Shown here one piece after another: positions 1 to 61,162 of a DNA stretch of 64,000 nt (positions are counted from its first letter, which is position 1; every line of letters starts with the position of its first letter). Source of the stretch: Catenaria anguillulae PL171 (lineage: Eukaryota; Blastocladiomycota; Blastocladiomycetes; Blastocladiales; Catenariaceae); assembly GCA_002102555.1 (NCBI GenBank), contig MCFL01000019.1, forward strand, positions 248,001-312,000. Direction: 5' to 3'. The notes under the pieces are model-generated. The model worked only from the letters and a program-made list of their open reading frames with translations. It ran no database searches and had not been told where the DNA came from. A program made the position numbers and the translations under genes.

Positions 1-1407
1 TGCCCCACAGGCTGTGTTGGTACAAACATCATTGACGAGGCATACGCTTGTCTGTGGCGTGGACCCGGCGCGCACGGGCGGGACGAGTGGAGCGGGGGTC
101 TTGGGCATTATGGGAAGCATGCTCGGATTGCATGGGATCATGCTGGTTGCGGCATGTGTGTACAGTTTCAAGGTATGCCTACGGTCCCCACGGAGTGAGT
201 CCGGCACAAGTTGATGTTCACGTTATGAGTTGCTTTTGCGCAGGTGCGAAAAGTAGCAACCGAGTACAACGAGTCCAGGTTCATTGCGCTCTCGTCATAC
301 AACATCTTTCTTGCTGTCGTCATTGTGTTTGCCATCGAGTACTCGGCCGTTTCCTTTCGAGTTTGTTGCCCTTTCTTTCCACTGTGTCCAACCCAATCCA
401 ATCCCTAGCCGACTCTCACTGTGTCCTTCAATTTTACCTGTAGGCCCAATACGCGATCCGCTCACTCGTCACGCTCTTTTCCATCTCTGGCGTCTATGCA
501 CTCATGGTCTTGCGCCCCGTTGCCGAATCCATCTTGACCACACGCCGGTCCGTGACTGGCGATGGAGCGCCCGTTTCGCCCAGTGTCATTCGCAATGCCA
601 TTATGAGCAACGTAGCCAAACAGCCAGAAAATGGACTCGTGTCGTTGAATTCATTCATGCCGAGCAACGGAACAGCACCGGCCACGGGTGGAGCAGGCGG
701 CAAGGAGCAGAGAGACGTCGGCAAATCGACCGTGGCGTGTGTACGGCTCTCTCTCGTTTCTTTTTTTCCCTCACAACTTGATCGGAATGGAAACAAGGCT
801 GATTGTCGCCCTTGGACTCTGCAGTCCATGAATGTCAGCACCGCATTTGCGATGCGTAAAGCTGGTCTGTTCCGGCGCTGGAGACCAGTGACGCTGTGTT
901 TGATTCACGGCGCCAAACGTGTCCTGCTCCTTGTCCAATACGATGACGAACTGGTCCGTCACTTCCATGAGAGTCTTTTTTTCTGCTTTTATTTTTGGTT
1001 CTTCATGCTGACCTGGGAGAAGGGAGAAAACACAGACTGGCACAACCTACTCAGCCAACGTGGCCGCGTCCCTCCTCACGCGCGGGGCGCCAAGCAACTC
1101 GTCACCTGCCTCTTCCTCGGATTCGCATGCGTGCCAGTTCCAGTTGTTCCTCAATACCCAATCGTATGTTGTGCAAGCATCGACCCATGCGCAGGCCGAG
1201 CAATGGGCCAGAGATATCAACTTGGCGTTTACGGGCGATGCGACCGTGTCCGGGTTACCGAGAATTGTGTCGGTGCGAGCAGTTTGGGCAAGCATGGGCC
1301 GGTCGGCGGCTGGGAGTACAAGTGAAAGAAAAAGTCGCGAAAGAGGCGAGAGCTCTGGAGGGCAACAGCAGCATAGAGCCGTCAAGGGAAAGGCTGGGTT
1401 GGAATAA
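1..1407 (+). CDS. Class C (GABA-B/mGlu-like) GPCR with C-terminal PH-like domain, 5'-truncated
   Basis: Only the 3' end lies in the window. Proposed exons are 2-172, 244-348, 444-740, 825-about 982 and about 1055-1407. The first three exons encode the last transmembrane helices: a Gly/Met/Leu-rich helix ending in ACVYSFK, a loop with VRKVATEYNESRF (the NE-x-[KR] loop typical of class C receptors), a helix SYNIFLAVVIVFAIEYSA, then a last helix around LVTLFSISGVYALMVLRP. The tail then has a PH-like module: GLFRRWRPVTLCLI strands in exon 4, and QFQLFLNTQSYVVQAS followed by the EQWARDI helix in exon 5. The same plan, 7TM plus PH-like tail, is seen in the receptors at 48304 and 57715. The donor near 982 is weak (gagagtcttt), so the exon 4/5 join is the least certain. 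The ligand domain, if present, lies left of the window. Confidence 0.75.
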
Positions 1408-42981: not shown

Positions 42982-44481
42982 TTATTGAGGGGCGACGTAG
43001 AGCAAGCGGTTCGGCGTGTTGCGGAGAGTTCCAGTAATTGCATTGCGAGTAGACCGGTTGATGATTTCCGCCGTGAGTTGAGCAGGAGTCAGGCTCGGGT
43101 TGGACGCGAGAATAAGCGCAGCGGCACCGGCAACGTGAGGGCTATGTCAAGAAACATGTAGGTGTGTCAATGAAGGTGCTTGTGGGTAGTGTCTTGCGGA
43201 GAAGAGGAAAGAACATACGCCGCCATCGACGTGCCTGAATCGGCAGCAGAGCCGCCATTTGGCGTCGCACTCACAATGTTACCGCCGGGTGCAATGACTG
43301 CGAATCATGAAGAAAAACATTGTCGGTGAGATCAAGGCACTGCAATTATGTGGAAGATTCTGTAAAGAAAAAGACGCACTATCCACACAGCGGCCAAAGT
43401 TGGAGTACCAGTCGAGACGATCGCCTGATGTGGAAGCAGCAACCGTGAGCGCACTCGGGGCGCTGGCCGGACTGACGTTACAGGCATCTTGCGTCTCATT
43501 GCCTGCGGCGGCGACGATGAGAAGGCCGGCGCGAGTGGCGGCTTCAATAGCCCGGTTTTCCGACTCGGAACGGTCACCGCCGAGACTACAAGCAGGAGAA
43601 TGGTTGGTCAGCATTGGTCCGTGGCACCAACCGGATAGGAATTGGCAGCCGGAGGCGAACCTCATGTTGACGATGGTGGTGCCACCGTTGGCGCGCGCTT
43701 GCTGGACAACCCATTCCAGCGCCGCAAGCACTCCAGAAGAAGGACCCGAGCCGCTAGCGTCAAACACCTTGAGACCGACAACGCGACTTTGCTTGGCAAC
43801 ACCAAACGTGCGGCCAGCGATGGTGCCAGCAACATGGGTTCCTAAATCGCGCGAGACATAGGTACTCAACATTAGTCCTGGGGCCTGGGCCGTACAATTC
43901 GCTTCGAGGGAAAACACCCATGTACCATGACCATTCTCATCCAAGTTGTTCCAAGATGGGTCTGCCTTCCACACCTGTGCCGCGCGGCCACCAAAGTCTG
44001 GATGGTTGGCCGCAATACCCGAATCAATCACATACACAGTCACGCCAGAACCTGCCAAGTCGGGAAACGTGTACGATCCAGGCAACGAGCGCGTGCGCTG
44101 CGACACCCTCGTGAGTCCCCAGCTCGGCGGGTTGGCCTGCGTAGCCTTAATGGAAACAATGCGGTCGGGTTCCACAGATGCAACACGCGGGTTGGACTTG
44201 AGCTTTTCAATCAGACCTTGCGAAAAGGTACCCGTGTAGCCTTTGAACGAATCGGCAATGGAGAGTTGGCGATCGATGGCGTTGTCAACGCCGCCACGGC
44301 CGTTTTCGCGCTCGACCTCGGAGCGGAGCGCACGAGTGAATTGGGATTGGTCGGCGTCGGGTTTGAGCGTGATAATGTAGCGGTTGGGAATGATGGCGTT
44401 CTTGGTCGACGGGTTTGGGGCGGCGTTGGAGGTGATGGAAAGAGTGGCAATGGCCAGGAGCGAGAGGAGCGAAAACTTCAT
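42982..44481 (-). CDS. Secreted subtilisin-like serine protease (S8A, proteinase K family)
   Basis: Five exons on the minus strand, 44481-43926, 43841-43661, 43585-43380, 43297-43219 and 43141-42982, give 393 residues. Order: signal peptide MKFSLLSLLAIATLSITSNA; inhibitor I9 propeptide (NRYIITLKPDADQSQFTRAL ... YTGTFSQGLIEKL ... VASVEPDR); peptidase S8 domain with catalytic Asp in VYVIDSGIAANH, His in GHGTHVAGTIAG (formed across intron 1), oxyanion Asn in LIVAAAGNE and Ser in DSGTSMAAPHVAG (formed across intron 4). The proteinase K marks QARANGGTTIVNMSLGG and NFGRCVDIIAPGGNIVSATP are also restored only after splicing. It is predicted to be an extracellular endopeptidase used in saprotrophic or parasitic nutrition. 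All catalytic residues are present. Confidence 0.93.
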
Positions 44482-45928: not shown

Positions 45929-48016
45929 ATGTCGTCTGCCGCTCCTCTGCCAACTGGCGCCGCTTGTGACGAAACCGCCGCCGCCGACGTCACGAGCGCC
46001 TCGATCACCTCGCCAGCAACATCAATGTCGCTCATCGACCGCCTCGCAGAAGAAACATGGCTCGCAATTCTCCACTGGGTTGCACTCGACCCTGCCACTG
46101 GCCGCGGACCCACTTGGCTCGCGCGATGCTCGGCAACCTGCTCCATGCTCCACCGCATTTGCAACGATCCGAGCTTATGGAGAGCAGCCTTCGTGTCCAT
46201 CAACGGCAAGCTTGGCCTTGATCCCAAAGGCCGCTGGCCCGAGTTGCACGAGCTCTCGTCGTCTGCCGCTCATCATCTCCACCATGGCCGTAATTCGCCA
46301 TCAACGCCGGCCTCACCGACGTGCCAGTGGAGAACGGTGGTCAAGGAGCAGGTCGTGTTCAACCAAACGTGGAGAGGTGCTCACAAGAAGCTTGCCTCGA
46401 CCTCGCTTGGCGCAACTGCACTGCAGAACAATGTCGAGGAGGACGCACCGTCTTCACTGTCCATTCAACCCGCGCCATTCTCAACAACTGTCCTTGGACT
46501 CTGTTTCCCGCCTTCCTACCACGAATCCCCACATGTTGGCAAATCGCCTCGGCGACTCAGCAAAATCGACACCGTGCGCATTTACACGCCGCCGCCAGAC
46601 AAGCCGCACCACCAACCGCTCATCGCCATCGTCGCCGACTGGGCGCGCGCATCGACCGATGCCAACCCTTTCCCCAGCTCCAACGACGATTCCGACGACT
46701 CGGATGATTCCGACGATGAGCAAGACCCTCACGACCCGCTACCAAACGAGCTGTTCCGCATCGCACACGTGCTCGACGCCAACACGTACCAGCCGCTGTT
46801 GACGTACCCGCTCACGTACAGACACCCACAGTCGCATCAGCTCGATCATTACAACTTGCTGGCGCTCGATCACCAGTCGCTTATCATTTTGTTCCAAGAC
46901 GACGACGAGTGCGAGGCGCACTTAATCAATTACCGAGATGCGGACAAGGATGTCGTGCATTCATTTCAAGACCCGCCACCAGCCGAATTGACCGACACAC
47001 CCATCATTCTGCCTGGATCGCCGTCATGTACGCCACTTGCTCTGCCTTTAACCTTCTGGTCACCACCATTTCACACTTTTCTGCATGTAGTCGCCCCCGT
47101 CCAAGCACACCTGCACCCCGACGGCAACTACCGCTTCATCATCCGCGCTACGTGGCTTCCGCAACTCGTCATCCAACGTCGATCGCCCACGACCCTCGCG
47201 CACCTGTTTGGTGGCGACACCCACATCAACACACGCTGCATTTGCTTCTTTTACCAGGCCGACCTACCCGATGTGATTGTGACTGGCGACCGGCGCGGGG
47301 CCGTCCACGTGTGGTCGGTCGAAACAGGCAACTTGCTGTACGCATATCAAGCAGGCACAATGACTTTTGTCACCTTCACCATGTTCCGGCCTTGGCTGCG
47401 GCCTGCGCTTGCGCCTGCCGTGGTCCGGAAGCACAAGTGGCTGCAGGTGTTTTCGCTCGTGCGCGGAATGCCGTTGGATTTCACCAATCCCCCGGGCACA
47501 ACGTTGCACAGTGTGCCAGCGGCCGCAATCGAGGCGCCAGTGGAGGATGTGACAAAGTCGATGACGGGTGATGCCGCGTCAGAGGCTGCTGAAGAGTTTG
47601 ATGCGTTTGCGGCCATGATGGATGCGGCATTGCAGGGAGGAACCACACCGGCACGAGGTGTTGCGTGGGTTGGCGGCGACTCGGGCGTCACCGAGGCCCA
47701 GGACAATCGCCCGTGCTACTTGTTTCGCGAGAGGCCAGAGCCCATGTATCGGAGGAAGGCGTATGTCGCGGCGTGGAACTTGATGCTTGTCATTGATGTT
47801 GCGGGCAGGGCGTTTGCTTTGGATTTGGTCTCGGGTGAGGAGGCCGAGATGTTTGCGTCGGTTGGGGTCACGGTGGACGCCGTGGAGCGGTTGCTGGCCA
47901 GCCAGGACGAGGGTCTGGGAGGACGCGAGGGCCGGCAAGACCTACCCAAAGTCTCTTGTCATGAATTGAACGGCCAGCAATTGTACTTATCCGACCGTCC
48001 CCACCTCCTCGATTGA
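45929..48016 (+). CDS. F-box protein with WD-like C-terminal segments
   Basis: Intronless, 695 residues. The F-box is near residues 33-85: MSLIDRLAEETWLAILHWVA, then SATCSMLHRICNDPSLWRAA. The middle has a Ser/Asp acidic patch (SSNDDSDDSDDSDDEQDP). A beta-propeller-like part follows, for example CFFYQADLPDVIVTGDRRGA followed by VHVWSVETGNLLYAYQAG, which is a good WD-like blade; other blades are weak. F-box proteins bind Skp1 and present substrates to SCF ubiquitin ligases; the C-terminal half would choose the substrate. The target is unknown. Confidence 0.78.
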   Translation: MSSAAPLPTGAACDETAAADVTSASITSPATSMSLIDRLAEETWLAILHWVALDPATGRGPTWLARCSATCSMLHRICNDPSLWRAAFVSINGKLGLDPKGRWPELHELSSSAAHHLHHGRNSPSTPASPTCQWRTVVKEQVVFNQTWRGAHKKLASTSLGATALQNNVEEDAPSSLSIQPAPFSTTVLGLCFPPSYHESPHVGKSPRRLSKIDTVRIYTPPPDKPHHQPLIAIVADWARASTDANPFPSSNDDSDDSDDSDDEQDPHDPLPNELFRIAHVLDANTYQPLLTYPLTYRHPQSHQLDHYNLLALDHQSLIILFQDDDECEAHLINYRDADKDVVHSFQDPPPAELTDTPIILPGSPSCTPLALPLTFWSPPFHTFLHVVAPVQAHLHPDGNYRFIIRATWLPQLVIQRRSPTTLAHLFGGDTHINTRCICFFYQADLPDVIVTGDRRGAVHVWSVETGNLLYAYQAGTMTFVTFTMFRPWLRPALAPAVVRKHKWLQVFSLVRGMPLDFTNPPGTTLHSVPAAAIEAPVEDVTKSMTGDAASEAAEEFDAFAAMMDAALQGGTTPARGVAWVGGDSGVTEAQDNRPCYLFRERPEPMYRRKAYVAAWNLMLVIDVAGRAFALDLVSGEEAEMFASVGVTVDAVERLLASQDEGLGGREGRQDLPKVSCHELNGQQLYLSDRPHLLD

Positions 48017-48303: not shown

Positions 48304-51300
48304 CTATTTGCAACTCCCAAAACTCGCACTATTTCTGGCATTTCCCGCTACGACACCTGTTCTCGTCTGCAGCAACCGAATGTCGGCAATCCACTGGGCT
48401 GCTGCTTGCGGCGAGTCGCCCTGAACCAAGTAGCTTCCGCCGCCAGCGCTACCCAAGACGAGCACAAAACAACCCGATTCCTCAGCACCACTGCTTTCGC
48501 CCACTTGCTGGGCGGTGATGTTGCGTGCAAAGAACCGGCCAGTTCCATTCTGTCCCAAGTCCAAATGAGTAAGTGTCAGCGGACGGAAAAGGTTCATGTC
48601 AATTTAACACATGCGTACTTCGGACTCGGCTGGGGAGGATATCAACAGTCCCGGAATGGGTTGGATCACGAGAGCTATTGTGACGGCTTCCCATCGAGAA
48701 AGAATGGATCCGAGTCGCTTCATGGACAACTTGGCATCTACCCGTGCCTACATGTACAACACACAAGGCAAAGGTCAGTCACTGCGAGCAGAGATCTTGG
48801 TCCACAAAGCAAGTATACTTGCACTCACGTTGACCATGGACGTATCCGATCCAGACGGGACCGATCCCGGCCCTGACGATGCCGCCACCGACCCGCGCCG
48901 GCCGCGTTGACCACCTCCTGCTGCCGCAGCCTGTGGCTGTTGTGCGCCACCCGCAGGTACCGGCACAGCGGCAGACGCGATAAACGTCTGTAATCCTGGG
49001 GGCATCCCAGACGGCCCCAACGTGGACCCTGACGGCAACGTTCCCAAAGACAATCGCCCGTCGCCTTGCAGCAATTGCACGGCCACGCTGACGACTGACC
49101 GGCCCACCAGCATGAACATACTGACGGCTGCGGCAAACAGAATGCCCAAGCACTTGATGACGGACTGTGTGAGCGGGTTCAGAGGCAGGTACACGATGGG
49201 CAGCAGGAACACGGAAACAAGAAGAATGTTGTAGGCCGAGATCCCGATCCACTTGCTGTCATTGAAGATGGTTGCCGTCTTGCGAATACAATAGCTCATG
49301 ATGCATGATGCAACGAGCAGGAGAAGGTGAAACAGGAAAATGATCCACGTTGCAACCACAACTGCCGACGAGCTAAAGTTGGCCGAGCACGCCTTCATGG
49401 TGTTGGTATTGTCAATCGGGTAGAAAACGACCTGGGACTCGGCCAGCACGGACCAGAAGACGAGGAGGATGGCATTGATGCCGACAAGAATGAGAACACC
49501 GACAAACAAGTGCTTGTCTTCAGTGTTCTTGGCAATCTTGTTGGGCCGAAACACAAAGTAGATGCGCGACGTTTTCACCAACGTGCTGCTCACAATGGTG
49601 GTGAATCCCAGCGAGAGAAACCACAGTTTGATATCGCAATGGACTGGCCGCGGTACGAAGCCCGCTTCCATGATCACCGAGGTGATGACAAGAGTTTGCC
49701 CAAGGAGAATCAGGAGCATGAACCGTGGCGACTGGGCCTTGACAAGGGTGTGCTGGCGGAAGGCAATGACGCCTATGCTCGACGCTAGGGTGAGCAGCAG
49801 AAGGATTCCTGCAAGAATGAGAATGCCAGTATATACGGGGACAGCCGTTCCCACACCCAAGACGTATTGGACTGAGAGGAGCAGGGCCAAGTTGGTGAGC
49901 CATAGCAAACATGGGACCCACTCCAATCGCTCGCAATGAGGACCCAACATACTATAGTCCGTAGGAGGCTTTTGGATCCATCTAGACCAAATCGACTTGC
50001 TCTTTTTGATCCAGTTGCACGCTGCCACCTCGGTTGCATTTGACCCGCCAATTATAGAGTAATCCTTGAGCAGGTCCATGATATCGTACTCGCTCAATGA
50101 GAAGTATCGCATGAGCGTGAAGGCTTGTGGGAACAACTTTGCCACTCGAGGCGACCCGACCTTGATGAGCAGCTCGGAGGGCAATCCGCATGCATGAGAC
50201 GTTAAGTTGGTGCCTGCAAGAGAAACGTTAAACCCGAGACCACAGTCGGGGCTCCATTTTGGGAACACAATGGGCGAAAAGCTTCCTTGTGCAGTTAAGA
50301 GTTCCGGTTGCCAGTAATAGTGGAGACAAATCTCGTTGGACTGCTGCGAGCAAGCCAACACCCGTTGTGCCAGACCATCGCCAAGGTAGACGATGACCAG
50401 AGGGAGGTTGAGCGAAACAATGACTTGCTCAAAGATGCCGGTGCTGTAATCTGGTTTGACATGATAGATTTCTCGGCAGCCATTTGGATTCGCTCGACAG
50501 TGGGGTGGGATGAATCGTCCACTTGTGCAAAAGGAAAATACGGCCGAGTCACAAAGGAACTTTCCAGTGTTGGGATGAACCGCCGGCTGAGTCGTGTTAA
50601 ACGGCGGCATGTGTGCGAGGACTTCGGGCCGCCGATAGCTTTGCCACGACGTCAATGCCCAGTCTGGAAATGCATCCACGGCACGCCCGTTGACAAAGAT
50701 GTTGGTTTCTGCTGTATACCCCATGAGGCCGAGATCATAGACGAGGCCTTTTTGAATGACCAAGTCGTTGATGGCGGCCTTTTGATATGAAGGCCAAATT
50801 TCAACGCTCAAGTCAGACTGTCCCTGGGCGATGCGTTGAAGCGCTTGGGCATTGTTGACAGCCTCAAGCAGTGTAACATTTGCTCCAAGAACATCGGTCA
50901 GCAAAGTGGCCAGAACGTAGCCCGTTACGTTTGCCCTGGTGTACTTGCAGAAATTGGTATGAGCTGCATTCGATCCGACGTAACCATGATGATGACAAAC
51001 TTACGATAGCCATGGTCCATATTCGACACGGATCGCGCCAGCTGGTCGCTGAATGACAGCCTCCCTCGTCAATTTGGGAATGACCCATCCAAACTCTTGC
51101 ACTTCCTCCAGTTCCAGGCACGTTGTCAATTGTCTACGGGTTTGGGCCGCCTGTTGTTGTTGTTGACCACAGCATTGGAGCACAAGAGTCAGGAACACAC
51201 TGATGAGGAGTAATCGGAGGGATATCGGGCAGATCTGGCGCCTTTCCGACTCGGATAATGAACACTTGCTCTGCCTTAACTTGAGGCCTTGACATGTCGC

Positions 51301-51351
51301 CATAGTGCTCAAAGCGGTTGGATCTGTGTTGCATAGTTTGTAGATGACCAT
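48304..51351 (-). CDS. OpuAC-type ligand-binding class C GPCR with C-terminal PH-like domain
   Basis: Exons 51351-51005, 50935-48829, 48747-48619 and 48549-48304 give 942 residues (an ATG at 51303 is an alternative start). A hydrophobic leader, LRLLLISVFLTLVLQCCG, precedes a glycine-betaine-type binding domain: NVTGYVLATLLTDVLGANVT, QGQSDLSVEIWPSYQKAAIN, TNIFVNGRAVDAFPDWALTS and the closing FSLSEYDIMDLL ... ACNWIKKSKSIWSRWI, which match the ProX/OpuAC plan. An extra Cys-rich loop is inserted (GRFIPPHCRANPNGCREIYH). The 7TM part is class C: KAQSPRFMLLILLGQTLVIT, CDIKLWFLSLGFTTIVSSTL, VKTSRIYFVF. The tail ends in a PH-like module (LSRWEAVTIALVIQ ... CFVLVLGSAGGGSYLVQ ... AAAQWIADI). Expected at the plasma membrane as a sensor for a quaternary-amine-like ligand coupled to G proteins; the ligand is inferred. 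Confidence 0.88.
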
Positions 51352-51655
51352 TGTCTCTGACACGGAGCAGAAATGAGACTTGGATTTTGCCTACCCTCCT
51401 TGCTGGTGTCGCCCAGAAGTTGCGATTCTGCACTCAGTCGTGTCCGCAGAACCCAAATGTGACCGAAATGTGCAAAGTGGCAGGAAGCGTCACTGACGCG
51501 AGGAACGCGACGAATCATCAATCGAACGGCCGCCGATTGTCATTGGTCTTTGGTGCCTTGATCCCTTTATGGATTGCATGCTCGCCCTTTGGTCAATTGC
51601 ATGATATTTCAGTGTGCTATCCTATGTGTTTATGGAGTACTCAATGCAACCAACC

Positions 51656-53879
51656 ATGTCCTCCAAGCCAACCCCAAAAGCCTTCCTGGCGCAACTCGCC
51701 GCGGCAATCGACGCCGAACACCAGGCCGAGCTTGCCGAATGCGACGACCTGCTGACCCGATGCACGCCCAAGCAGCTCCAGGACGCTGGCCTCGCACTCA
51801 TCAACCTCAAGATTGCCGCGACGCGCACGGGCCTTGGCGGAAAATGCCTCGTGGACCTCGACCCGGCCGTCCCCGGGGTGCTGTCGTTGCCGCCGCACAA
51901 GTTGCGCAACGGCGACATTGTTGCCATTGAAACGCACGATTCGGCGTCGTTTGCGGCTGCGTCTCGGAGCACGCAAGCCGCCAACGACGGCAAAAGTGCT
52001 CCGGCAGCGGCCGCGGGTAGTTCCGGTGTCGTGTTCCGTGTGACAGATGCGAAAATCACATTGGTGTGTGACGAGGACCCGACAGACGATTTGAACGGTG
52101 GAAATGAAGTGAGGGTAGTCAAGTTGGTGAACGAAATCTCGCACAAGCGCTTGTCGGGCGTGATCAAGTCGCTGCTGTCGTTGGTGGATGACGGCAAGGC
52201 GTTGCCGACGCGGCTCATGGATGTGTTGCTGAATGGAGCAGTACCTCAATTTGATGAGGGCATGCTACGGCCAAAGTCGGCGGGAGCGGGCAAGGGTGGG
52301 GCAAAGAAGGGCAAGTCTGGAACATCAACGGCGTCATCCATCAAGTGGTTCAATCCAGACCTCAACCCGAGTCAGAAGGCGGCCGTCGAGTTGGCGTTGG
52401 CGGCACAAGACGTTGCTCTCATTCACGGACCGGTATGCGTCATTGGCTTCATTTTCACCATCAGTCCCACCTACTTACCCATTCCCCTGGCCACACGTCT
52501 TAGCCAGGCACAGGCAAGACACACACGCTCATCGAAATCATCCGCCATCTTGTCTCGCAAAACCTACGCATCCTCGTCTGCGGCCCATCCAACATTTCTG
52601 TCGACAACATTGTCGAGCGCCTCGCACCTCACCGCCTGCCCATGCTGCGCATTGGACACCCAGCGCGCCTGCTTCCAAGCGTCCTCGCCCACTCTCTTGA
52701 CGTGCGCGTGCGCACGTGTGACGAAGGCCAGCTCGTTGCCGACATTGTTCGCGAAATGGACCAGTTGCACGGCAATGCACGGAAAGCCAAATCACGAAGC
52801 GAGCGGAGAGGGATTTATGATGAGATCAAGGTGCTGCGCAAGGAGTTGAAGCAGCGGGAGGCGGCCGTGGTCAGAAACTTGATCCGAGGAGCAAAGGTGG
52901 TGTTGACCACTTTGAATGGGGCGGGAGGCAAGAAGCTGGACAAGGAGGAGTTTGACGTGGTGGTGATTGATGAGTGTGCTCAAGCGCTCGGTATGTCCAC
53001 GCTCTTTTCCTCGTCCAAGGCCATGACATTCAATTGACAGCGCCCGCTTCGTACTTAGAACCCGAATGCTGGCTCGCTCTTCTCAAGTCTCGTCGCGCTA
53101 TCCTCGCCGGCGACCATCTTCAGCTGCCACCCACCATCAAATCCACCGCCTCATCAAATCCGCTATCCACAACTCTCTTCGAACGCCTCATCAACCGCCC
53201 CGACGGCGCCGACCTGTCTCGCCTCCTCAACGTTCAATACCGCATGCACACGGATATCATGACCTATCCGTCAACGCACCTGTACCAATCGCAACTGGTC
53301 GCCCACGACTCGGTTGCGAGCCATACCTTACTCGACGTGGCCAATGTCAAGGACACGGATGACACGCGCCACGTGCTTCTGCTTATTGACACGGCGGGCG
53401 CAGACATGTGGGAGTCTGTTCCCGACACGGACGGCTCAAAGTCCTCGGTGCTTGCCGAATCCAAGTGCAACGAGCACGAAGCCGACATTGCGGCCGCACA
53501 CGTGCAAGCGCTTGTTGTTGAGGGTGGCGTCAGCCCCAAAGAAATTGTTGTGCTGACTCCGTACAATGCCCAAGTCGCGCTCATCAAGTCAAAGTTGCGG
53601 TTCATGGACGGCTCGTGGGCCGCCGATGTGGAGGTTGGGTCTGTGGACGGCATGCAGGGAAGGGAAAAGGATGCCGTTGTCTTGTCGCTCGTTCGGAGCA
53701 ATGATCAGCGCGAGGTCGGGTTTTTGGCTGAGGAGCGCAGGTTGAATGTGGCAGTGACCAGGGCGAGGCGCCACTTGTGTGTGGTTTGTGACAGTGAAAC
53801 GGTCTCGGCAAGCAAGTTTTGTCAAGGGCTGGTCGAGTACATGACCGAGCACGGCGAGCTGAGGTATCCTGGGTACTGA
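51656..53879 (+). CDS. SF1B DNA/RNA helicase, IGHMBP2/Hcs1 (SMUBP-2) type
   Basis: Exons 51656-52432, 52504-52990 and 53059-53879 give 694 residues. An N-terminal beta-barrel region (LINLKIAATRTGLGGKCLVD, LRNGDIVAIETHD) precedes the helicase: Q-motif LNPSQKAAVELALA, motif I IHGPPGTGKTHTLIE (formed across intron 1), Ia VCGPSNISVDNIVERL, II VVVIDECAQALEPECWLALL (across intron 2), III ILAGDHLQLPPTI, IV LLNVQYRMHTDIM, V VGSVDGMQGREKDAVVLS and VI LNVAVTRARRHL. Intron ends were chosen to restore these motifs; ttagcca and tacttag are the acceptors. There is no R3H or AN1 zinc finger after motif VI, so it resembles yeast Hcs1 rather than human IGHMBP2. It should be a 5'-3' helicase acting in translation or DNA metabolism. 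Confidence 0.92.
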
Positions 53880-54176
53880 ATGTGTGTACAAATAAATGTT
53901 TGGGAACTAATGATTCTTGTATTGGCTTTCCCATCGGCGGTGGGTTCGCGAGCACTTGGTTAGATTGAGTAAATACGTCAACGGATGAGGGAGCAAGGAA
54001 GAAAAGTGCGATGAGAACAAGCGAGTCTTGTCGCAAATGTGGACGAGGGGGTCACATGCAAACCAATCATATCTTGGAAGCGCAATGCAATGAAGAAGGA
54101 GAAGGAGAGATGTGGCTACAGATGGGTACAACGATCAAACATAGATGGAGAGCAATCGATTCGCGATCACCGACGA
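53880..54176. other. Intergenic between convergent genes
   Basis: About 300 bases between the helicase stop (+) and the kelch gene stop (-). It includes an aataaa-like signal (aaataaatg) at about 53889, the likely polyadenylation signal of the helicase gene. Confidence 0.5.
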
Positions 54177-56461
54177 CTATTGTTGCCGACGGCTAGCCGC
54201 GTCCGCCAGATCCTGCTCACCGGGGACCTGCTGTTCTTGGGTCTCCAAAGGATAGTACTGTGCTTGCACCTGAGCCGGTGCAGCAAACCCGACGAAATAC
54301 TGCTGTTGTTGTTGCTGCTGTTGCTGGGCACCAAATGCTTGGTTGGCCGAATCGCCCTCGCCCGGCAAGTACAAGGTGCCCGTGCCCGGAACACCGCCGC
54401 CATTGTGCGCAAGCATTGCACTTGCTTGCTGCTGCTGCATCATCAAGACGCTTTGCCTGCGCGCGGCCTCCTCGTGATTCACGAGGAACACGCCATTGTT
54501 GGATGGCTGTGGCTGAGGTGGGATCGGTGCACTGCCAGAGTAGCCCGTCACAAACTGGTGCTGCGGCTGTTGCGCGGGAGTTGATGAAAGAGCATAGTGC
54601 TGCTCTGGCGACATGACGTAGGGCATGAGTACCGGCTGTTGCTGGAACATGTGTGGGTTTTGCTGCTGCTGGTAGGCCATCATGACGTTGACATCTGGGT
54701 ATCGCTCCGTGGCGTCAGATGAAGGGACAGACTGCGGGTAGTAGGCATATTGATACTGCTGCTGTTGCTGCTGCTGCTGGCTTGCGGCAGAAATCATGGA
54801 CATGCGATGCTGATGGTCCATGGACGATGCTGCCGCGCCCGAGTTGTTGTCGAAATAAACGACTTGGTGTGATGGTTGAGGCGGTTGCGGGGAGGAATAC
54901 GAGCTGACTTGAGAGAAGCGATAGTCGTTGCTTGCTGGTTGAGCCGAGTTCAGTGGCGGTGGAGGTGGCGGCAACGAGGAGGAAGACATGGGTGCCATTG
55001 TGCTAGACGTGCTAGGGCCGGTACTTTGAGCGACGAGCGGTGTATCGGCCGCAGCGCCGGGTTCTGCTCGCGGGGGAATGGAAATGGCGCGAGGTGATTT
55101 GCTTGCCTGAGAGCGACGACGAACAAACATGAAGGCAAGTCCGGCAAATACAACGAGACCAATTCCCGCGCCGATTGCGGCCCAGAGCCAACTCGGTGAC
55201 GAGGAAGAGTTTCCGGATTCGGACCCTGTGGATGCGCCAGAGGCGGGCACGCCAGTTGGACCAAAGTCGGATTGCCATTGGCCCGAGATAGTATCGCCGT
55301 TGGTCGATAACTTGGCCATGTACAGTTGCTTGACATGACTGAAGGGTTCCGTGTTGGCGTCCCAGTTGGCGAAGCCACCAAATAGCATCTTGAGGTCAGT
55401 AAACAAGCAAATGTCAGATCGGAAACAGAACTGGATGCAGACACAAGCGTTTAATGGGTGCATACCAAATGGTCATCGACAAGGATGGCATTGTGGCGAG
55501 TGAGATAAGTTGGAGCAGGAGCCGAGCCAGAAAGCGACAATGGCGATACATTGCCGGTTGCCAAATCAATGACTTCTATGAGCGTTGCGGGCGCAGAGTC
55601 TGTCCAACCGCCTGATGCGATGGCATATCGATTGTTGTCTGTGTGGGATTGACGAGAAGAAGGGTCAGAGATGGACAACAATCAATGAACGGCGTAACCA
55701 ACAAAAGGGGTTGCATGAGCAAACGTACAGAGAGTGACACGATGCGAGTACCGGGGCACAGCCAGCGGTTTTGCGCCCTTGGCCCACGCATTCTTGGGAA
55801 TGTCGTAGGTCCACCAATCTGCAAGAGATCGGCTGATGTTGTTTGGATCACGACCACCAGACAAGAGCAAATGGGTTTCGTTGAGGGGGACCAGCACGCC
55901 AGCAGCACGGGCATCGGGCCATACGGGTGCAGCAGGGTTGCGAGAAATGGCGGGCGAGACGGCAACTGGATCCTTAATGGAAATCCGTTTGAGGTCGCCA
56001 TTGAAGCGCTCTGGCGTTGAATTGTACTCTACTCCACCATAAACAAACACAGAATCGCCGGTGGCCGAGCCCGTCACTGCCGGCGAAATGCAAGCCTGAC
56101 CGAGGACATCGATGGGATTGGGTACTGCCAACGAAATCCAGGCATTCCGCTCGACATCCAGTTCAAAGGCTTCCTTATTACTAGCCCACTTTGTGGTTGA
56201 TCCGCCCATGACACGAATGCGGCCGTTGACCGTGGCGGCAGCAATGGGGTCCGAAATAGGGATTGGCAAGCTGGCGACCTGGGTCATCTTTGGACCGCCC
56301 GTAGCATTGAATGGCGAGCGCAGATCAATTGCGTAGACGGCATTTCGTGGGCCGTCTTCCATGCTGGAGCCGCCAATGACGATGACGGACTGAGCCTGGC
56401 CTTTTGCCGTGCGGACGACGGCGGCCGAGCCGGCCAATGAAGGGATTGGCGAGGTCGACAT
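54177..56461 (-). CDS. Kelch-repeat single-pass membrane protein with polyQ tail
   Basis: Exons 56461-55729, 55638-55466 and 55388-54177 give 705 residues. The N-terminal half is a kelch beta-propeller: SVIVIGGSSMEDGPRNAVYA, GRIRVMGGSTTKWASNKEAF, DSVFVYGGVEYNSTPERFNG, THLLLSGGRDPNNISRSLAD, RYAIASGGWTDSAPATLIEV, LMLFGGFANWDANTEPFSHV; each blade has the hydrophobic-GG pattern. A single helix, WLWAAIGAGIGLVVFAGLAF, followed by MFVRRRSQ, fixes the topology with the kelch domain outside. The cytosolic tail has proline runs and several Gln runs. No signal peptide follows the chosen ATG; the frame is open upstream with an acceptor (gtccag) near 56521, so a first exon with a signal peptide is probably missed. 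Role is perhaps cell-surface adhesion or sensing. Confidence 0.82.
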
Positions 56462-56908
56462 GGCGGCGGCGTGGGAACTGTGACGTGGGAGGGAAGCGGA
56501 TCCTGGTGGGTTGCGGAGCCACGGCTGGACGGAGAGTGGGAGAAGGGTGGGTAGGTTGGGCCTAGGGTGTGTGTGCAATTCTAGGCGGACAAGTCTACAT
56601 TCATGTCATTCATCCATTCAATCTTTTTTCGTTTTTGGCAGAGCGAAAAGTTTGCAACCAAATGCAAATCGTCTGCCGCCATCAAAGTTGCTTCAAGGTG
56701 AACCGCATTCAGATTCCCGATTGTGATCATGCAGGCCGCTCCGGTTGATCAAGAAACCACACACAAAATGTCCATTGAAGTCTGAATCTTCAAATGGAGC
56801 CTCCCCCTCTCTGCTATTCAGTTGCTTCTGAGGCAGACCCCCCGTGTACTGACATGATCCTTTGGACGGCAACCCCGACACAGCGGTCAGTGCGTACACA
56901 CCCACACC
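56462..56908. other. Upstream region of the kelch gene
   Basis: About 450 bases. The part up to 56521 may be coding in an unannotated upstream exon join. A run of T and A (aatcttttttcgtttttggc near 56620) is seen. No complete gene. Confidence 0.4.
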
Positions 56909-57370
56909 GTCCAACAAAAGATTTTGGAGTCAAGTTTGGCTGGCATTTCGGCACTTGCAAACACTGCTCCACGAGTGGTAGAAGCCGATCGCCCAAGAGA
57001 CGACGACCAAGGGCAGATCCGAGTCAAAGATGCGCTGCTCATTTACGCCTACCGAGTAGTCAGGTGTGACATGCCACAGCTCACGACACCGTCCAAACCA
57101 CCTCCCATTGGGCATGCATTGGGGCGGGACGTAAATCCCATTCGTACAGTACTGTCTGGTGCATGTGCTCACCCGAAGCCTGACGCTCAGTCATCCCCTG
57201 GATGGGCAACTACTGCAACACATCTGGCCGGTGTTAAGTGTTTGATTGACCCGACTTCTGGACGGGGACGCGCACAATGTCGCGCAGCAAGTACAAGCGA
57301 CGGAACACGTGGTCACATTGACACTGGACCATGCCGACGGAGTATTCAACCACAATGGTTGGATAGTGGC
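56909..57370 (-). pseudogene. Relic of the OpuAC-GPCR ligand domain
   Basis: Minus-strand sequence resembles the adjacent complete receptor (57715-61162) piece by piece but in broken frames. The pieces are YPTIVVEYS (receptor: VYPTLTLEYSAW), AWSSVNVTTCSVA, YLLRDIVRVPV...GQSNT (receptor: YLLRDVMGIPI...GQTNT), a jump that loses roughly 80-90 residues, RPDVLQ followed by an in-frame stop, YCTNGIYVPPQCMPNG...WFGRCRELWHVTPDYSVGVN, and LLPLVEQCLQ after a frameshift. It ends at gttggacg, the same place as the receptor's exon 2. The intron that splits the receptor between TGG-TCC-AG and T-TCC-AAC is absent here, the join reading tggtccagtgtcaatg. This looks like a decayed tandem duplicate, and no product is expected. 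Confidence 0.85.
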
Positions 57371-57714
57371 GGTGACGGACGTTGTCGGCGTCGTCGGCCG
57401 ACACTTCTGAGCTTCATTGCTCAAGAACTTGGATATCAAGGAAGTATGCAGCGGTGTTTGCGTAGGGTCCTCCAAAAAGTTGTCCCGCATGTAATGATGG
57501 GACCAATTCAAACAATGCACCGTTCACTGTGTCTGCGGACTTGCAATGCGAACAAAACTTGCTGACTGCTCCTGTCTTTGAAACATATTGAGTTGCACTA
57601 GGGAACATGAAAGGCACATAGGACTGGACGCGCAAAACACGAACTGTCAACACAATGCTCGGAAACCCGAGTCATTCAAAACCCGCCAACGGCAAGAGAA
57701 AACACATGAAGGAG
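57371..57714. other. Spacer between receptor relic and receptor gene
   Basis: About 340 bases. It may hold unrecognisable remains of the relic's signal-peptide region and the 3' flank of the complete receptor. No open frame of interest. Confidence 0.4.
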
Positions 57715-60700
57715 TTACTTGGGCACGCCACCCAGCGTCGACGACCTCACAAGCGAAGAGCTTGGACTCGCCGCAGAACTTGACTCTGCTACTGACCCGC
57801 GCTTGAGCGATGCCTGGCCTCGGACAACCAATGGACTGCTTGGATCCACATTAGACTGTAAAGATGGCGTGCGCTTGACTTGAGCAAGCGGTAATTTGGG
57901 GAGTTTGGGACTGCCGCCACTTGGCTTGCCGCTGGAGGAGCGGCTGTTGGGCTTGGTGCGAGTCAGTTGCTGACCTCCGATTCCAAATGCTGAGGACAAG
58001 AAGGCAATCCATGAAACGATGGACGCCGCGTCGTTCATGTGAATGAGCCAAGACGTCATGCCTGCATCTTTTCCCTTTGGCTTGGGTTCTTGGTCGATTG
58101 CAGGGTTTGTCTTGGGTCCCAGTTGAAGCACAGCTGCGCCGGTATTTTGCAGTGGACACAATGTCGAGTCGCCTGAGACGTCTGCCAGCGCCATTTGGAA
58201 CTGCGTGTTTGCGCCTCGATGCACGATCCCACGACAGTCTCGACCACACAACAGCACCGACTTGGATACGGAGGGGAGCGCAAGAAACAAGGGAACATCG
58301 GCAAACGTGACGAGTTGAACAGGCAGCCAATGCGGTCGCAGAAGCGACCAGCGATGACGAGGTAGTTGGCGCATGTTGACATTGCTTGACACATGGACCG
58401 TTACGCGAGCGACGAGCATTTCCTTTGGCTTCAATATGCCCAGTGTTCCTGTCAACGGGACGGCCATGGCAGACATGGAGCGCAGCTCCTCGGGTGAAAA
58501 GTATCCAGCACAGTCATAAGTTGCCGCGATTCCGCTCGTGACGGTCAGACTCCGTGCAGCGACACTCGCCCCTCCGCCAACCAGGCCCGTTGCCGATGTG
58601 ACACCAACAGCCGACGTCCCACCTCGTGTCGCAGGATCCGCGGCACCAGCATCCAAGTCGGCCGACATTGACCCAGTTTGATCCAACATCATGGTGATTG
58701 CCCCAGGTGCTGCGGAACCACCGCCGCCGCCGAAGCTCGCGCCTTGCTGTGATCTACCACCTGCTCCGCCTGCACGAGACGCAGCTTGGGAAAACGCTTG
58801 TCTCATGCTCTGTGTATGTGCTCGCATTTGTTGCACATTACCTTGCGCCAATGCATTCAAGACCTCGGTGATAGCCGACCACGTTGAGATGGGAACCACC
58901 GTTGTTGTGGCAAGCACCGCAACGGCTCCAATGGACCCGAGCAAGATGAGCAACGTCGTGACGATAACGAGGACGTGCGGATCCACTGCCTCGCCCAGCA
59001 CCGTCAGCATGTTCAATGCAACCATGACTGCAGATTGACACAGTGTCGCATACGTGACTGGGCCATGCTCATTGTACAGCGATACGACACCCTTTGTCTT
59101 GTGCGACATCCACAGCGCACCGCCGGCAATGTGCAGCTGGAACATGACCCAGCTCCATTCGCCAAAGATGCCCAAGGGTGTAATGCGCATGGTGCACGCA
59201 TTGGTAAACTGAGTCGCACTCAATGCCCGCATCTCTGGCGTGAGCGGGGCCATGAGAAACTTGATGATGACGTTGCCTAGGACCGCCACAAGCAGAACGG
59301 CGCCCGTTGCCAGCAAGTGCTTTGTTGTCACCTTGAGCGTAAACAGCCGGCCATAGATGACAGTCGAGATGCGCAGGTTGAAAAAGATGTAGTACGTGCG
59401 CCACACCTTGAGCAGGATGGCTACTTGGACCAGGCACCAGCCAATGGCGATAAAGTGCGGCGCGACGCTGCAGTTGGATGGCGCCCATTGCTTGAGCATG
59501 ACGGCAGTGCTTTGAATGAATGCACCAGCTAGAGCAGCACTCAGGAGAATGGGCGACTGGATGCGGACTTTGGCGTCGCGGCGAAACAGGTACAGTGCAA
59601 TACTGGTGATGGCGAGCTGGACAAGAAGGATGCCGTACAGTGCATGGAGACCAATCGACACTTGGTTGGGCGGCAGCAATGGTGTGTATCGGCTCACTGT
59701 ACAAACCAACAAGAGATTCGTTGTGTGTTCATTCTTCCTCCATCTTGACGGAGGCATTGACAGAACTTGAGCGTACCAAGATCGGTAGGCGCGGGCGGAA
59801 TCCATGTTTTCCAAACAGCCTCATTCTTCTTGACCCAATCACAAGCAATCATGTCCAAGTTATCCGTGGACGTCACGGATGCGAGCATTTGCAAAATGTC
59901 GGCGTCGGAAAAGATGACCGAGCGAAACATTGACCAAGCTGGGGGAACCGTTTCGCGCACAGACTTGTGTGCAATTTTGTGAAGCAAGTCCGTGTCCCAG
60001 TCGACGGTGAGCTTGACATCAGGTCCAACGGCAAGAGCATTGTTCCAAGACGCCCAAGAGCCGGGGCGAGGGGGGTCAAAGTTGACTCGTTCCACTGGAT
60101 ACATGCCAATCAGAGTCTCTGGCTATATACACATGCGAAAAAAAAAAACAATGATGAGGCTCCTTGAGGTGAGGTACACATTGGTGGACCAACAGAGCGT
60201 ACCGTCCAGTAAAAGAATAGACACGTCCTCGTTGGATCCTGCCTCTGCAAACACTGCTCGACCAAGGGCAAAAACCGATTGCCCAAGTACACGACCACCA
60301 ACGGCAGTCCCAAATCAAAGATGCGCTGCTCATTTACACCAATCGAGTAATCGGGCGTCACATGCCACATTTCTCGGCATCGACCAAACCAAGCTCCGTT
60401 CGGCATACACTGCGGAGGCACATAGATTCCATTGGTGCAGTACCGCTTGGTGCACATAAACTCGCCGCTTGCCAGCCTCTCTGTGGGCGTGGTCCCTTGT
60501 GCGGGCAAGTACTGCAGTACATCTGGTTGCAGCAGCGACCGCCACGAAGTAAAGATTTTGTCTGGGTGAGCATCAATGATGAATCGTGGAAAGTAGATGG
60601 CGATGCGGCCGGCGTAGCCAAGAAGCCCCATGTAATCGACCTTGGCCTCTTCGATAATGTACTTTCGGAACTGCGGTGCCTGTGTGAGTGGCCACAGCTC

Positions 60701-61162
60701 CGTGTACATTTGTGTCATGCCTTCCGCGATCCGGTCGTAGGTGTTGGTTTGGCCCGACGACTCGGCCATGCGAATGGGAATGCCCATCACGTCACGTAAA
60801 AGGTACGCGACCGCGTAGGTTGTGAGGTTGGAACTATGTATTACAAATGTCAACGCTCGTTAGTTCAAGGGATCACGTCAAAGAAAAAAGTGTACACACC
60901 TGGACCACGCAGAATACTCGAGCGTCAGCGTCGGATATACCTTGCGCTGCACCAAACTTGAGTCTTCCCCTGGTGGCGCGATCCACCCATAACTCAATGA
61001 GCGGCTCGCCGGCAAGCAGTTGGGCACATGGCGGAATGTGATATCGTCCATGGTCGCCTTTCCCTCAACGTGAGTTGCCAAGAAAGTTGCCGCGGCAAAC
61101 ACCGCCAATAGCAAGGCGGCCATACCGCGCGCAACGATGGAGCGAGGGTCGCTTGCAAACAT
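57715..61162 (-). CDS. OpuAC-type ligand-binding class C GPCR, long C-terminal tail
   Basis: Exons 61162-60900, 60833-60203, 60122-59777 and 59696-57715 give 1073 residues (an ATG at 61228 would add 22). Signal peptide ARGMAALLLAVFAAATFLAT. Binding domain: NLTTYAVAYLLRDVMGIPIR, GMTQMYTELWPLTQAPQFRK, GRIAIYFPRFIIDAHPDKIF, then a Cys-rich insertion (YCTNGIYVPPQCMPNGAWFG, RCREMWHV) and the closing FSDADILQMLASV ... ACDWVKKNEAVWKTWI. Seven helices span about residues 420-690 (for example IQSPILLSAALAGAFIQSTA, WCLVQVAILLKVWRTYYIF). The tail has a Gly/Ala-rich linker and a PH-like region (RHRWSLLRPHWLPVQLVTF ... QFQMALADV ... MTSWLIHMNDAASIVSW). The exon 3 acceptor must be tatatag, four bases before a second AG, to keep frame. 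Predicted plasma-membrane chemoreceptor, same family as the gene at 48304. Confidence 0.88.

Follow-up and report, generated by a model that had tools for sequence, protein, structure and literature searches.

Class C receptor genes of Catenaria anguillulae with OpuAC-type ectodomains closest to TmoX and DmpX

RESULTS

Two receptor genes join an OpuAC-type ectodomain to a class C seven-helix domain

Catenaria anguillulae is a zoosporic blastocladiomycete. We analyzed a 64,000-nucleotide stretch of its genome (the window, G000:C101:248001-312000), taken from a draft assembly of 41.07 Mb in 457 contigs. A preliminary description of this DNA had proposed two complete receptors that pair an OpuAC-type ectodomain with the seven-transmembrane (7TM) domain of class C G protein-coupled receptors (GPCRs). 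We found both genes, A and B, with their outer ends at 48304 and 61162 as described there (Table 1). In each gene the Pfam families OpuAC (PF04069) and 7tm_3 scored over their curated cutoffs of 21.2 and 33.5. OpuAC reached 29.6 bits (6.9e-7) in gene A and 34.1 bits (2.8e-8) in gene B, and 7tm_3 reached 126.6 bits (1.7e-36) and 40.3 bits (3.9e-10), respectively. The ProX-like terminal pattern that had been reported could be read directly, as 'AACNWIKKSKSIWSRWI' in gene A and 'IACDWVKKNEAVWKTWI' in gene B. Both proteins run from a hydrophobic N terminus (judged by eye) through the ectodomain and the 7TM domain to a long tail. A large bilobed domain is present ahead of the 7TM domain, and the hydrophobic N terminus would place it on the extracellular side.

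The intron at 49952-49872 of gene A was set after a public Catenaria model, P0001, and the matching intron of gene B. P0001 is a named C. anguillulae protein and is the same as gene A save for splicing differences. A 926-residue model of gene A, which reads through this 81-base intron, was rejected and corrected from these two sources. The Pfam scores of gene A come from that longer model, whose 27 extra residues follow residue 427 and lie outside the Pfam stretches. We judged the other P0001 intron to be wrong because it would remove a 'PPQC...CRE' segment present in the other aligned relatives.

In both genes an intron separates the ectodomain from the 7TM domain, at equivalent positions. 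We found no Pfam match to the cysteine-rich NCD3G domain in A or B, unlike in the mGlu/CaSR/T1R subgroup, and the linker between flytrap and 7TM domain is about 20 residues long in the predicted structure of the related protein P0002. A and B have the class C 7TM fold in common with GABA-B and mGlu receptors. By profile comparison their 7TM domain is closest to that of GABA-B receptors, in which the flytrap is likewise joined to the 7TM domain without a cysteine-rich domain.

The pairing of OpuAC and class C domains is known, and we dropped the view that this architecture is new. Krishnan et al. (2012) reported OpuAC domains in six class C (Glutamate-family) receptors of Allomyces macrogynus, also a blastocladiomycete (PMC3251606); one of the six, AMAG_04252, is P0009 in our set. 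The public records of P0001 and P0002 already carry PF00003 and PF04069. Animal class C receptors, in contrast, have a flytrap of the ANF_receptor type (PMC3251606). What we add is the pocket, the PH-like tail, the link to cyclases, and the near-identical tracts described below. The consulted sections of Krishnan et al. mention neither ligand residues nor other transducers, both of which are covered here, and we did not meet a pocket analysis, a PH-like tail, a cyclase-linked sensor, or domain-wise homogenization in the literature searched. As a separate observation, AMAG_04246 (P0011), labeled LysR_substrate in PMC3251606, belongs to the OpuAC-type family and shares 45% identity with gene B across 73% of the query region.

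The ectodomain is closest to TmoX and DmpX and largely keeps their aromatic box

The predicted structure of the gene A ectodomain (predicted local distance difference test score [pLDDT], 90.2) matched TmoX in Foldseek at an E value of 1.1e-14, and we therefore regard the ectodomain likeness as more than chance. A phmmer search of the N-terminal part of gene A alone against the PDB gave a best E value of only 0.1. The ectodomain had been described as an OpuAC/ProX fold. We found that the closest solved relatives by sequence and fold are not ProX but TmoX, which binds trimethylamine N-oxide (TMAO), and DmpX, which binds dimethylsulfoniopropionate (DMSP). Binders of TMAO, DMSP, and betaine are the structures closest to the gene A fold in Foldseek, and the match list also holds proteins that bind ergothioneine and sensors engineered for acetylcholine and nicotine.

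The pocket of TmoX is formed by W55, W102, F106, E131, W177, F220, and W222, and Glu131 hydrogen-bonds TMAO (PMC8918994). That of DmpX is formed by W35, T64, W84, E113, W152, A153, Y200, and W202 (PMC10030565). At the TmoX positions, gene A has W98, W147, T177 (for E131), Y263, Y306, and W308, and gene B has W86, W135, I165 (for E131), Y250, F295, and W297. Aromatic residues stood at the W55 position in 14 of 15 aligned rows, at W102 in 16/16, at W177 in 17/20, at F220 in 19/20, and at W222 in 20/20; the mean aromatic share was 12% over 329 columns, counting columns with at least 14 rows. These box counts exclude P0001 (the same gene as A) and P0018 (without ectodomain), use the first 180 residues of P0004, and are not independent, as P0012/P0013 and P0002/P0003 are near-duplicates. 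The TmoX sequences were drawn from 10 of 80 loci. The W177 position holds Tyr in nine GPCR rows, Leu in three (P0002, P0003, and P0007), and Trp in eight (the cyclase-type proteins described below and P0020). In the alignment with TmoX, the 'YVPPQC...CRE' segment, which has four invariant cysteines, lies in a gap.

We then read the box in ten further Catenaria loci, where several top matches run across introns or gaps (at W55 in L123 and L124, at W102 in L128, and at W222 in L127 and L128). Trp was found in at least one match per locus at W55 (10/10) and W222 (10/10), and at W102 in nine of the ten. The W177 position was Tyr in eight loci and Leu in two. In L123 two matches were gapped at W55 and the third had Trp; one of three matches in L124 had His. 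The W102 position of L130 reads Cys in its sole match, and no E-x-W motif was found there.

Several observations weigh against the model, set out in the Discussion, of an onium ligand bound in this aromatic box. Glu131 is replaced by T, I, V, or S in all 20 rows, and no aromatic residue stands at the F106 position in the nine eukaryotic rows printed. The F220 position is clearly aromatic in just 7/10 paralog loci; L125 has Gly, L132 has His, and the readings of L127 are mixed. Sixteen ectodomain columns are at least 85% aromatic, and only five of them belong to the box. The W177 match varies between aligners: Y263 is paired with it in one MAFFT mode, and a gap is placed there in the other. The pairing is backed by hhalign with a cyclase profile, and the two hhalign runs with gene A or gene B in the lead have a gap. 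Of the aromatic ligand cage proposed earlier, the aromatic walls are largely kept but the glutamate is lost. Because Glu131 is lost and F106 has no aromatic counterpart, a TmoX-like TMAO site is unlikely, and we rejected TMAO held as in TmoX. The kinship with TmoX and DmpX, the largely kept box, and the loss of Glu131 taken together make a methylated onium compound the probable ligand.

The receptor tails carry a PH-like domain

The gene A tail matched Pfam PH (PF00169) at 21.3 bits (4e-4), under the curated cutoff of 25.1, as did the tail piece of P0010 (24.1 bits); the gene B tail had no Pfam PH match. We therefore call the tails PH-like only. A PH match was found at the tail in 10/10 paralog loci. 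Genome-wide, we found 15 PH matches behind class C receptors where 0.15 were expected. Like the subcutoff score of gene A and the lack of a match in gene B, it counts against a PH assignment that only 4 of these 15 loci exceed the Pfam cutoff. The predicted structure of P0002 shows seven strands within residues 711 to 794, followed by a helix at 798 to 818, in a block with pLDDT values of 57 to 87. No PH chain was among the best 50 matches of the whole-receptor model, which were 7TM and binding-protein chains. We know of no C-terminal PH domain in GABA-B or mGlu receptors. We found no report of a PH tail on a class C receptor in the open-access literature, including a term search of PMC3251606 and PMC12716839; the term "PH domain" is absent from the text of Krishnan et al. 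(PMC3251606).

The receptors form a family, and gene B shares near-identical tracts with a paralog

The preliminary description had suggested an expanding family, and we found many loci. With the A and B ectodomains as queries, we found at least 17 merged loci in the genome, and in 14 of them a 7tm_3 match lies 28 to 132 bases downstream on the same strand. These counts are lower bounds, since only the best candidates were scored; merging took in 150 7tm_3 places, 53 PH places, and 38 plus 7 of 36 ectodomain places (the rest of the 36 overlap these). One of the 14 receptor loci (on C6) is based on a 25-residue ectodomain match, and the loci on C198 and C290 may be one locus in two copies. The three loci without 7tm_3 are the decayed copy in the window and partial matches on C24 and C417, which are seemingly copies of one another.

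Four receptors and a relic lie within about 92 kb of contig C101. Besides A and B, a third receptor straddles the left window edge (ectodomain, G000:C101:246438-247478; 7tm_3, G000:C101:247591-248175), and one of its ectodomain matches crosses a TGA, which marks an intron or a broken gene. A fourth of the same kind starts about 23 kb to the right of the window. The decayed copy reported beside the genes is real, but it consists of ectodomain fragments only: a single DNA match of 77% over 209 bases and protein pieces corresponding to gene B residues 65 to 119 and 190 to 284, with stops. No 7tm_3 match was found within 600 bases behind it, and we rejected it as a further full receptor.

The fourth receptor is a paralog of gene B and runs in the opposite orientation (G000:C101:335335 to about 338480, forward strand). 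We compared this one pair and placed the tract ends by eye from 100-base windows. Near-identity starts at gene B residue 343, and tract I covers the last ~70 ectodomain residues and the 7TM domain (1084/1111 positions identical, intron 3 included). Tract II covers the PH-like part (477/490), and the linker between the tracts is identical in 231 of 392 columns. Intron 3 is identical in 73/80 columns, intron 1 in 30/83, and intron 2 in 39/91. The synonymous (dS) and nonsynonymous (dN) divergences were 0.049 and 0.004 in the 7TM domain, 0.063 and 0.006 in the PH-like part, and 1.08 and 0.082 in the ectodomain (dN/dS, 0.075, with dS near saturation). Because the intron and the silent sites are highly identical, these tracts point to recent copying rather than to selection on the protein. 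The mosaic suggests gene conversion. It is improbable that the near-identity is an assembly artifact: the assembly is a draft of 457 contigs, but the identity of the tracts is 97 to 98% and not complete, both copies are on the same contig in opposite orientations, and the divergent linker separates the tracts.

The genome-wide class C repertoire is large for a fungus: the 7tm_3 matches merge into at least 121 loci, and ANF_receptor has at least 72 matches. These are not gene counts, since a gene can be split by its introns and some contigs seem to be duplicates. The SBP_bac_1 profile had five matches in the genome.

Related ectodomains occur on cyclases and other proteins

Homolog searches returned receptors of the blastocladiomycetes Catenaria, Allomyces, and Blastocladiella. 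We found that the gene B ectodomain also matches P0012 (7.0e-13) and P0013 (3.1e-11), with 24 to 25% identity over 93%. A profile led by P0012 found P0014 to P0019 and, weakly, P0020 (1.3e-4). In P0012 to P0015 and P0017, a single membrane helix (judged by eye) is followed by a Guanylate_cyc domain. Pfam OpuAC was under the cutoff in P0015, P0017, and P0020; P0020 combines a weak OpuAC match with cysteine-rich repeats and a weak TRP-like match. No Pfam domain was matched in P0016, and the ectodomain is missing from P0018. P0016 carries the label PhM_4, which we take to be Papus ankaliazontas, a species placed as prokinetoplastid. A profile that includes the cyclase parts of P0012 to P0017 matched trypanosome GRESAG 4.3 at 6.2e-13, a likeness to the kinetoplastid GRESAG4 cyclases. 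Trypanosome cyclases have been described as having two flytrap domains (PMC6027212), whereas proteins of the P0012 type have one OpuAC-like ectodomain, 25% identical to that of gene B.

Two further Catenaria loci, L011 (G000:C24:429375) and L013 (G000:C442:93673), represent a second type of protein, with an OpuAC match followed by cysteine-rich and hydrophobic segments. The cysteine-rich segment of L013 gave weak NCD3G and ephrin-receptor-like matches. There was no 7tm_3 on either contig among the matches listed.

Other genes in the window

A Kelch-repeat frame (55682-56578, reverse) lies between the two receptors and is possibly one gene (54177-56578) with a frame (54177-55463, reverse) that has a hydrophobic stretch and ends in a glutamine-rich tail. 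The window also holds a SMUBP-2-type helicase in several frames (51614-53879, forward), an F-box-like protein (45929-48016, forward), and a subtilase with an I9 propeptide (43279-44481, reverse).

Table 1. Receptor features in the window (position 1 is its first nucleotide)
Feature	Position	Strand	Basis
Gene A, class C receptor, 899 aa, five exons (GT..AG introns)	51303-48304 (exons 51303-51005, 50935-49953, 49871-48829, 48747-48619, 48549-48304)	-	Spliced model
Gene A ectodomain, OpuAC/TmoX type, from residue 56 of exon 1, plus exon 2	49954..51138	-	Pfam, fold, alignment
Gene A box codons	W98 51012-51010, W147 50796-50794, Y263 50448-50446, W308 50313-50311	-	Alignment
Gene A seven-helix domain, 7tm_3	49105..49839	-	Pfam
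Gene A PH-like domain, residues 776-883, last two exons	48355..48747	-	Pfam PH under cutoff; position kept in paralogs
Gene B, class C receptor, 1073 aa, four exons (GT..AG introns)	61162-57715 (exons 61162-60900, 60833-60203, 60122-59777, 59696-57715)	-	Spliced model
Gene B ectodomain, OpuAC/TmoX type, residues 41-413	59778..61042	-	Pfam, alignment
Gene B box codons	W86 60907-60905, W135 60694-60692, Y250 60349-60347, W297 60208-60206	-	Alignment
Gene B seven-helix domain, 7tm_3	58924..59664	-	Pfam
Gene B divergent PH-like domain, residues 840-987	57976..58419	-	Alignment to PH-like tails of relatives
Tract I, gene B residues 343-686	58880..59990	-	Pairwise comparison
Tract II, PH-like part, residues 813-976	58010..58499	-	Pairwise comparison
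Decayed copy between A and B, stop-containing fragments from the ectodomain of a gene B-like receptor	56955..57398	-	DNA and protein matches
Third receptor, 3' part (7TM end, linker, PH-like tail)	1..1407	+	Stop codon in one frame at 1405-1407

DISCUSSION

We consider it likely, on the whole, that A and B are class C GPCRs in which a TmoX/DmpX-like OpuAC flytrap binds an onium ligand in an aromatic box, the 7TM domain signals to a G protein, and the tail ends in a PH-like domain. According to this model, the ligand (betaine, choline, carnitine, TMAO, DMSP, or a similar solute) would be clamped between the two lobes by W98, W147, Y263, and W308 in gene A and by W86, W135, Y250, and W297 in gene B. 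TmoX and DmpX themselves are free periplasmic transport proteins of marine bacteria; the aromatic box is largely common to them and the receptors, whereas TmoX Glu131 (DmpX Glu113) is not kept in the receptors. Closure of the lobes would be passed through the short linker, without a cysteine-rich domain of the mGlu/CaSR type, to the 7TM bundle and from there to a heterotrimeric G protein. G-alpha genes exist in the Catenaria genome. The PH-like domain may anchor the tail at phosphoinositides or G-beta-gamma. Such receptors could serve chemosensing by zoospores. In chytrids, another phylum, glycine betaine and homarine were among 22 compounds tested on zoospores, and all standards attracted them (PMC5334607). 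It speaks against an osmolyte role that the same authors rejected a major part for most osmolytes in chytrid attraction (PMC5334607).

The pocket may hold another cation (ergothioneine, a biogenic amine, or a host choline ester) instead of a classical osmolyte, with the OpuAC fold and the box retained. The absence of TmoX Glu131 and F106 would fit such a ligand, as would the presence in the fold list of ergothioneine-binding proteins and of engineered sensors for acetylcholine and nicotine. We regard this as rather unlikely, given that both genes keep the four aromatic box positions and that the nearest structures bind TMAO, DMSP, and betaine. GABA-B2 does not itself bind ligand and partners GABA-B1 in a heterodimer. 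Some members of the receptor family could likewise be partners without a ligand of their own; the GABA-B-like 7TM profile and the Leu at the W177 position in P0002, P0003, P0007, and two paralog loci point in this direction, but A and B are aromatic at all four positions, and we think it quite improbable. It is very improbable that the aromatics are structural and that the domain has lost small-molecule binding and serves adhesion or osmotic or mechanical sensing: eleven columns outside the box are as aromatic, but the box columns are ligand contacts in TmoX and DmpX (PMC8918994, PMC10030565), and the ectodomains of gene B and its paralog are under purifying selection at the low dN/dS given above (dS near saturation).

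For the onium-binding receptor model, the related proteins raise a broader reading, which we put forward tentatively as somewhat less probable than not. One eukaryotic onium-sensing module, closest to the bacterial TmoX/DmpX branch, may sit on at least three transducers, namely, class C GPCRs in blastocladiomycetes that end in a PH-like domain, single-pass cyclases in kinetoplastid-like protists, and cysteine-rich multihelix proteins in Catenaria and elsewhere, with gene conversion keeping the transducer halves of the GPCRs alike while their sensors diverge.

The analysis turns a published domain listing into a concrete hypothesis, with pocket residues, a tail domain with a predicted class of partner, and paralogs that share a transducer and differ in their sensors. 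If ligands are found, these proteins would be eukaryotic GPCRs for betaine-like solutes, and related sensors that drive a GPCR or a cyclase could be compared. If the broader reading is true, the pattern of gene conversion would be a way to diversify chemoreceptors while their coupling stays constant.
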